Assembly (NCBI GenBank): GCA_030710605.1
Contig: CP092865.1
Coordinates: 136,107,500 to 136,171,499 of the forward strand
DNA: 64,000 nucleotides
Direction: 5' to 3'
Source of the DNA: Cordylochernes scorpioides
Lineage: Eukaryota > Arthropoda > Arachnida > Pseudoscorpiones > Chernetidae
In this document: positions 50,948 through 51,924 of the stretch, piece by piece
Numbering within the stretch: the first letter of the stretch is position 1
Layout: the number at the start of each line of letters is the position of its first letter
Notes under the pieces: model-generated
Told to the model about the DNA's origin: nothing
The model's database searches: none
Seen by the model: the letters and a program-made list of their open reading frames with translations, nothing else
Made by a program: the position numbers and the translations under genes

Positions 50948-51924
50948 AAATTATAAAACTATTTTAGTGGCGTATTATTCTTTTTTTAAAATAAAACAAT
51001 TTCTACTGTCCTTACTGCGATGAAAAAATTAAAGGGAGGGCCTGGCTCATCAGTGGTGAACCCTCCCAGCGGTTTCGCCAGTTTAATCTACCATACCGCT
51101 GTTATATTGCATTTTTGGAACTTCCTTTTATAGGTGACCGTTGTAAGAATCTTGGAATGGGTATTTTAGAAGAACTATGGACATAAGCTTTTAGGACAGC
51201 AGAATTAAATATAATTATAAATATATAATATGCTTCGAGCAATCGCTCTTCCGCAAATATCAAATTGTGTCTTTTATTAGAACAATAATGTTATGATGTA
51301 CTAGAGCGCCATCTGTTATCAAATTATAAAACTATTTTAGTGGCGTATTATTCTTTTTTTTAAATAAAACAATTTCTACTGTCCTTACTGCGATGAAAAA
51401 ATTAAAGGGAGGGCCTGGCTCATCAGTGGTGAACCCTCCCAGCGGTTTCGCCAGTTTAATCTACCATACCGCTGTTATATTGCATTTTGGAACTTCCTTT
51501 TATAGGTGACCGTTGTAAGAATCTTGGAATGGGTATTTTAGAAGAACTATGGACATAAGCTTTTAGGACAGCAGAATTAAATATAATTATTTGCGGAAGA
51601 GCGATTGCTCGAAGCATATTATATATTTATAATTATATTTAATTCTGCTGTCCTAAAAGCTTATGTCCATAGTTCTTCTAAAATACCCATTCCAAGATTC
51701 TTACAACGGTCACCTATAAAAGGAAGTTCCAAAAATGCAATATAACAGCGGTATGGTAGATTAAACTGGCGAAACCGCTGGGAGGGTTCACCACTGATGA
51801 GCCAGGCCCTCCCTTTAATTTTTTCATCGCAGTAAGGACAGTAGAAATTGTTTTATTTTAAAAAAAGAATAATACGCCACTAAAATAGTTTTATAATTTG
51901 ATAACAGATGGCGCTCTAGTACAT
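50948..51924. mobile_element. Multimeric retrozyme/Penelope-like element, 13-bp duplication
   Basis: Flanked by AATAAAGATGTTT (50935-50947 and 51925-51937). Unit 1 is 50948-51320 (373 bp). Unit 2 is a head-to-tail copy truncated at 51590. A third segment, 51591-51924, is inverted and itself crosses the unit-to-unit junction. No coding capacity. On the minus strand of each direct unit, CTGGCGAAACC lies about 20 nt before CACTGATGAGCCAG. These are hammerhead core words with complementary GCCAG/CTGGC flanks, but in permuted order. Long target duplication, tandem units and an inverted tail fit a Penelope-like or retrozyme-type retroelement. Confidence 0.8.

Follow-up and report, generated by a model that had tools for sequence, protein, structure and literature searches.

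The window analysed here is a 64,000-nt stretch of the genome of the pseudoscorpion Cordylochernes scorpioides (contig CP092865.1), and the element in question is a repetitive insert at 50948-51924. It is composed of a complete unit, a head-to-tail part of a second unit and an inverted arm, with a 13-bp target-site duplication on either side. An earlier interpretation made from the letters alone (the sequence-only reading) had proposed this composition, including an inversion that runs through a unit junction; the coordinates were re-derived and agree with it. Unit positions are given as sense position p = 51321 - coordinate, the sense strand being the minus strand for unit 1. The parts of the insert are as follows.

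50935-50947, no strand: left target-site duplication, AATAAAGATGTTT, from direct comparison with a shifted-pair control
50948-51320, minus (sense) strand: unit 1, complete, 373 nt; its left outer end is start site a
51321-51590, minus strand: unit 2, head to tail and truncated (unit positions 1-271), ending at the central inversion junction
51588-51924, plus (sense) strand: inverted arm with a unit junction at 51899/51900; its right outer end is start site b
51925-51937, no strand: right target-site duplication, AATAAAGATGTTT, from direct comparison

Relative to unit 1, unit 2 carries a single substitution and lacks 1 nt, both changes lying in homopolymer runs, and it overlaps the inverted arm by 3 nt at the central junction. 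Within the arm, 51588-51899 matches unit positions 1-312 exactly in reverse complement, and 51900-51924 crosses the unit junction into unit positions 373-349. With a GC content of 34% and a longest open stretch of 63 codons, the unit is non-coding. An open reading frame for reverse transcriptase (RT)/RNase H (49667-50377, minus strand; Pfam) lies ~0.6 kb from the insert.

Hammerhead ribozymes are built from three strand blocks: S holds the cleavage site and connects helices III and I, G (GAAA) connects II and III, and C (CUGANGA) connects I and II. The words CTGGCGAAACC and CACTGATGAGCCAG, already recognised as hammerhead words on the minus strand of the direct units, are indeed present there and recur on the plus strand of the inverted arm; their spacing is 15 nt rather than the earlier estimate of about 20 nt. 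The S block (CAGCGGUA followed by UGGU, with the predicted cut between them) had been overlooked and sits 8 nt before the G block. Read along the minus strand, the pattern is CAGCGGU-A/UGGU-8 nt-CUGGC-GAA-ACCGCUG-GGAGGG-UUC-ACCA-CUGAUGA-GCCAG-G-CCCUCC, where the slash marks the predicted cut. It is located at the following positions.

51035-51101, minus strand: type-SGC hammerhead pattern of unit 1, predicted cut 51094/51093, from descriptor scans with a Markov null
51101-51090, minus strand: S block of unit 1 (strand III-a 51101-51095, A17 51094, strand I-a 51093-51090)
51081-51067, minus strand: G block of unit 1 (strand II-b 51081-51077, GAA 51076-51074, strand III-b 51073-51067)
51066-51061 and 51040-51035, minus strand: the two strands of the bridging helix of unit 1
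51057-51042, minus strand: C block of unit 1 (strand I-b 51057-51054, CUGAUGA 51053-51047, strand II-a 51046-51042)
51408-51474, minus strand: type-SGC pattern of unit 2, predicted cut 51467/51466
51746-51812, plus strand: type-SGC pattern of the inverted arm, predicted cut 51753/51754

Helices I (UGGU/ACCA, 4 bp), II (CUGGC/GCCAG, 5 bp) and III (CAGCGGU/ACCGCUG, 7 bp) all pair flush with an intact core, so that the GCCAG/CTGGC pairing earlier proposed as stem II finds its place in the full pattern, and a further helix (GGAGGG/CCCUCC, 6 bp) bridges the outer ends of helices I and II. The core invariants CUGANGA, GAA, A15.1-U16.1 and an H17 other than G are all present. The block order is S-G-C in all three copies within the insert, each with an intact core and the bridging helix, and this order is unreachable by any circular permutation of hammerhead types I-III. 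The sequence-only reading had seen GAAAC ahead of CUGAUGAG and considered a different or a decayed fold; the order is different, whereas the idea of decay falls away with the S block, which completes the pattern. The insert carries the complete sequence pattern of the type-SGC hammerhead, with order, helices I-III and I-II bridge all in place, the helices as sequence complementarity.

A compact Watson-Crick descriptor of type SGC matched only these three copies in the 64 kb, both strands included. When 4,000 Mb of simulated order-2 Markov sequence, a null that controls composition only, was scanned in the same way, 333 weaker matches were obtained, of which one reached the top summed helix length of 15 and none the observed 16. 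Another, looser scan found three weaker combinations near unit 1 (sums 14, 10 and 10; spans 132-224). Folded without pseudoknots, the region forms the stem III hairpin beside the bridging hairpin (z -2.83; 4 of 200 shuffles were equally good), and with the two hairpins side by side helices I and II become loop-loop contacts. The whole unit folded as a circle was unremarkable (z -1.3 for the minus and -1.0 for the plus strand). The proposed check against the Rfam hammerhead models gave no match in any of three scans (3 kb with E<=5, the window with the gathering threshold, 211 nt with E<=10), as fits an S-G-C order that departs from the standard ones.

Other structures were also considered for this region. 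A standard type I, II or III hammerhead within a single unit was rejected because the gap of 19 nt between GAAA and CUGAUGA is too little for stems I and III. A fold of the plus strand like that of hepatitis delta virus, judged by eye, lacks P4, and microRNA matches from Rfam were due to the long inverted repeat and stayed under the gathering scores.

The assembly searched (2.62 Gb, 24 contigs) contains at least 329 scored matches to the insert, the window's own included (best 40 of 1379 candidates scored). Forty insertions were examined, the one in the window and 39 taken from the best matches listed, a sample in which young multimers are over-represented. Insert length ranged from 667 to 3211 with a median of 1274. 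The genome copies examined, of which the sequence-only reading had wished to see a full collection, are mostly multimers with unit junctions, and not all monomeric. Two arms stand head to head in 36 of the 40, and a single arm is present in four (L046, L062, L071 and L078). A target duplication of at least 9 nt was found in 32 of the 36 convergent insertions and was lacking in L042, L049, L064 and L069; the duplications have a median of 13, are mostly 12-14 bp, and are richer in AT than the window (82% vs 66%). Among shifted control pairs, 2 of 200 had a repeat of 8 nt or more at the duplication position, which bears out the 13-bp duplication claimed earlier for the window.

The outer ends of the arms fall in two zones ~30 nt apart, a (sense 360-373/1-12) and b (13-45). 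One a end was combined with one b end in 34 of the 36 convergent insertions and two ends alike in none (0/36); the remaining two, L049 and L069, have one outlier end. Ends derived from BLAST may run a few nt into the duplication, and the b end in the window, defined by the duplication, is sense 25 instead of 30. Between the two start sites, at unit sense 5-16 (51316-51305, minus strand), lies ACAGATGGCGCT, which we take to resemble an initiator motif of YY1/Pho type. In three right arms the central end falls on sense 16, which may mark the 5' end of an RNA.

Many of the oriented insertions have arms of more than one unit (22/32 a-arms and 24/32 b-arms), which indicates copying around a circular template or along a multimeric one; both fit the data. 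The multimeric template inferred earlier from the window is borne out by these arms, which show head-to-tail copying, while the inverted piece used as an argument is by itself no proof. Central arm ends cluster at sense 288-300 (13 of 72; P 0.0004 by a scan statistic, which allows for the fact that the 13-nt zone was picked after inspection). This zone is the 3' edge of the ribozyme domain (sense 220-286), and the pile-up looks as if the polymerase had halted at folded RNA. One insertion, L068:2003-3443, holds five consecutive 288-nt units that share a 350-to-60 internal deletion, reflecting either later growth of the array or a template of repeated shortened units.

Seven divergent relatives were present in the fetched loci, and six of them were compared, L060 (a 45-nt match) being excluded. 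Three keep the core invariants with a divergence of 12-23% outside the ribozyme, and in these the ribozyme region is better conserved than the rest: 2/67 positions changed vs 45/384 outside in L048 (Fisher p 0.017), 2/67 vs 43/316 in L055 (p 0.007) and 4/67 vs 47/206 in L072 (p 0.0009). The two changes in L048 are the two sides of one pair in the bridging helix (G-C to A-U, compensatory), and both changes in L055 keep G-U pairs. In L072, both sides of a stem II pair changed (C-G to U-A), H17 changed from A to C, and one change lengthens stem I; the linker between helices I and II, 8 nt in the window unit, is 7 nt or fewer in this subfamily with its longer stem I. The L072 subfamily is multi-copy, with at least 43 matches at 95-100% identity (best 40 of 505 candidates scored), two of which lie 372 nt apart, and an identical 71-nt core in 7 of 20 fetched copies. 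No significant sparing of the ribozyme was seen in the decayed relatives L054 (4/67 vs 16/125 outside), L043 (10 vs 11/84) and L047 (15 vs 23/104).

An old relative was also found within the window itself.

6275-6480, plus strand: old relative, from block C (17-mer identical) to the 3' end, 69% over 111 nt

It has a 73-bp foldback arm (89%), its S and G blocks are unrecognisable, and a target duplication was not found. A G block seemingly kept at 6245-6275 beside it was dismissed, as the stretch scores no better than shuffles. Directly after the old relative, in 6480-6640, stands GGGTTCGATCCC, presumably a tRNA B-box-like word, and the region is maybe a tRNA-derived short interspersed nuclear element (SINE). 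Elsewhere, 8 records of viral contigs contained the 17-mer and 3 records of genome contigs the G-C block pattern; inspection by eye showed no S block in either set, and both were put down to chance. No relatives were found in plasmids or phages, nor in viral contigs by exact patterns.

The non-circularly permuted type-SGC hammerhead was described by Eckert et al. (2023, PMC10085705) from 583 sequences. According to the available part of that paper, five candidates were tested and each cleaved at the predicted bond in vitro, and break-and-restore mutants of one candidate demonstrated that all four helices are needed. The same text places the type mainly in anonymous environmental RNA, and states that genomes of known organisms did not yield it. 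Order S-G-C, invariant core, helices I-III and the I-II bridge are common to those RNAs and the pattern described here, which differs from them in being DNA-encoded, in a large genome and within a retroelement. Stem I has 4 bp here (5 or more in subfamily 2) compared with 5 in the HRIMA-1 motif, and stem III directly adjoins the bridging helix, a spacing of 0 nt that is within the 0-44 nt given there (PMC10085705). The citing papers among the matches listed are two, both on structure-superposition tools. No title or opening of an abstract among the literature matches listed reports a genome-encoded type-SGC hammerhead; these matches lie outside preprints and most subscription papers and so do not prove its absence.

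In its unit the insert resembles the metazoan non-long-terminal-repeat retrozymes, which the accessible text of Cervera and de la Pena (2020, PMC7229834) describes as AT-rich, non-coding tandem units of 150-450 bp with a hammerhead, many copies and target duplications of >4 bp; the 373-nt unit is likewise low in GC, tandem and non-coding, with a median target duplication of 13. Those retrozymes carry a type I hammerhead and their circular RNA has been demonstrated, whereas the element here has the order S-G-C instead of type I and is known from its DNA. With a hammerhead other than type I, it would work like a retrozyme as a variant outside the class as defined.

Its mode of insertion resembles that of Penelope-like elements. 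The enzyme of a green anole element starts reverse transcription inside the RNA, cuts and extends both DNA strands and prefers AT-rich sites, and the tail of 30-40 bp is the stretch between the two start sites (PMC11167929). Rotifer Penelope elements, in the part of the source available, have an optional 31-bp tail at one of their inverted pseudo-long terminal repeats (pLTRs), and head-to-head inversion is the commonest form seen (PMC3846280). Tandem and inverted layout, internal starts, use of both strands, AT-rich targets and a one-sided tail of ~30 nt are shared with what these sources describe (PMC11167929, PMC3846280), and fixed internal starts on both strands with the ~30-nt tail at one end were found in the 34 of 36 convergent insertions. 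The a/b rule is a stricter form of this pattern; in the anole in vitro work the two strands did not differ in their start site (PMC11167929). The hammerhead order SGC differs from the usual order in Penelope-like elements, and a Penelope-like RT/GIY-YIG gene is not in the unit. The anole element also carries a hammerhead, the cleavage of which was dispensable for insertion in vitro (PMC11167929), so that any role of the ribozyme in the movement of the insert is inferred.

Taken together, the start-site rule, the duplications, the multimers and the complete type-SGC pattern uphold the earlier leaning towards retrozymes and Penelope-like elements. We consider the insert to be a young non-autonomous retrozyme, probably mobilised by Penelope, with a putative type-SGC hammerhead, and give this a probability of about 0.83. 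Several observations weigh against it. In a looser control (any block order, G-U allowed, span <=120), 40 Mb of window-like sequence contained 18 combinations with a helix sum of at least 16 (10 in standard and 8 in reversed order), and 40 Mb of unit-like sequence contained 4, every one in standard order; matches of this kind are by themselves not rare enough, and the strength of the pattern rests on the compact Watson-Crick version. The I-II linker of 8 nt compares with typically 3 in type SGC as far as its description is available, and the discoverers do not consider it obvious that the geometry of a 0-nt junction between stem III and bridge fits the known crystal structure (PMC10085705). 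The covariation asked for by the sequence-only reading is there in two compensatory pairs over five distinct rows, and it is thin: 99.1% of cells are paired with 2 double changes, and 45 of 500 shuffles were as high (slid controls gave 32-56% paired and zero double changes). Stem I is invariant in the relatives except for its lengthening. Private changes in young copies break pairs (128 of 162 places are identical to the window), as expected of copies that are no longer under selection. Finally, the predicted cut is rarely a stop, with 1 of 72 central ends within 1 nt, implying that the template is not usually a cleaved linear monomer.

The block order in tandem copies would by itself allow a fold across units, in which the G block of unit n finds its pairing partners in the S and C blocks of unit n+1, giving an unknotted, type II-like hammerhead in multimers only. 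No pseudoknot would be necessary, and small Penelope hammerheads, going by the title of one paper, reportedly cut as dimers. Such a fold requires ~300 nt in the loop of stem III, and within a single unit S and G make a strong hairpin locally; moreover, the bridging helix, which is important in the compact SGC fold, has been kept through one compensatory and one G-U change, and the compact RNAs reported in the available text cleave in vitro (PMC10085705). We regard the cross-unit fold as improbable. The view that the pattern is a coincidence within two stable hairpins of an ordinary SINE-like element appears more doubtful still: it draws on the missing Rfam match, the weak formal covariation and the looser descriptor, which by itself is not rare enough, and it is opposed by the 4,000 Mb of simulated sequence, in which the compact order never attained the helix length seen here, and by three divergent copies in which the ribozyme region is better conserved than the rest and the core invariants are intact.

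A different question is which enzyme made the inverted arm. Insertions of long interspersed nuclear elements (LINEs) also show inversion with target duplication and short junction overlaps, and the overlaps or gaps at the central junctions here are mostly within 8 nt, as would suit a LINE enzyme that copies a linear multimer by L1-like twin priming. With that mechanism the second start should be scattered, whereas 34 of 36 convergent insertions have two different starts at fixed places, as in Penelope, and no poly-A or simple-repeat tail was seen at the listed insert ends; we therefore think it unlikely that a LINE enzyme was at work instead of Penelope-type dual initiation.

For the preferred Penelope-mobilised retrozyme, the following course can be proposed. 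Tandem genomic copies would give transcripts of the sense strand, which is the minus strand in the window, and in the RNA the stem III and bridging hairpins would join their loops through helices I and II to form a hammerhead core of order S-G-C. Cleavage is predicted after A17 (C17 in subfamily 2) and would yield unit-length RNAs, which may be ligated to circles; alternatively, the RNA may stay multimeric. By analogy with the known elements, a Penelope-like RT/endonuclease supplied in trans would make a staggered cut, mostly of 12-14 bp, in AT-rich DNA. Complementary DNA would then be begun internally from both 3' DNA ends, each end using a different one of two fixed points that lie ~30 nt apart. 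Synthesis would proceed on the circular or multimeric template until the two arms met or the enzyme halted, for which the folded ribozyme would be a frequent place. A dimeric enzyme with two positions on one RNA would explain why each start is used exactly once. We lean towards a genome-encoded type-SGC retrozyme whose Penelope-type enzyme initiates a single time at each of the two fixed starts, perhaps as a two-headed complex that copies one small circular RNA from the two sides of the target simultaneously.

Other repeats were also noted in the window. A large inverted duplication is centred near 21530 (10586-14604/28451-32473 and 15236-17018/25417-27189; 93% over 4.1 kb and 1.8 kb) and is either a chromosomal palindrome or a big foldback element. 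At 4350-5456, a nearly perfect palindrome of ~1.1 kb (98% self-inverted) is possibly a foldback transposon. Arrays of a 32-bp satellite (58262-58512 and 59706-60616) lie near two tRNA-Gly genes (58935-59005 and 60864-60934), and 84-bp tandem repeats at 2230-2685 (minus strand) encode zinc fingers, presumably of the C2H2 type with TGEKP linkers. Transposase, RT and integrase genes (Pfam) are present as well, which we assign to the piggyBac, gypsy and copia families; with the zinc-finger repeats and the size of the genome, these genes point to an animal.

That an RNA fold can be permuted non-circularly was first shown in 2023, in RNAs of unknown host. If our interpretation is true, this multi-copy and apparently recently active family gives the type-SGC fold a host lineage, a likely role in the processing of retroelement RNA and many natural variants. 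The strict rule of one a and one b end would turn the optional one-sided tail of Penelope into a testable prediction about two polymerase subunits starting on one RNA. Searches limited to type I, II and III hammerhead models would miss such elements.
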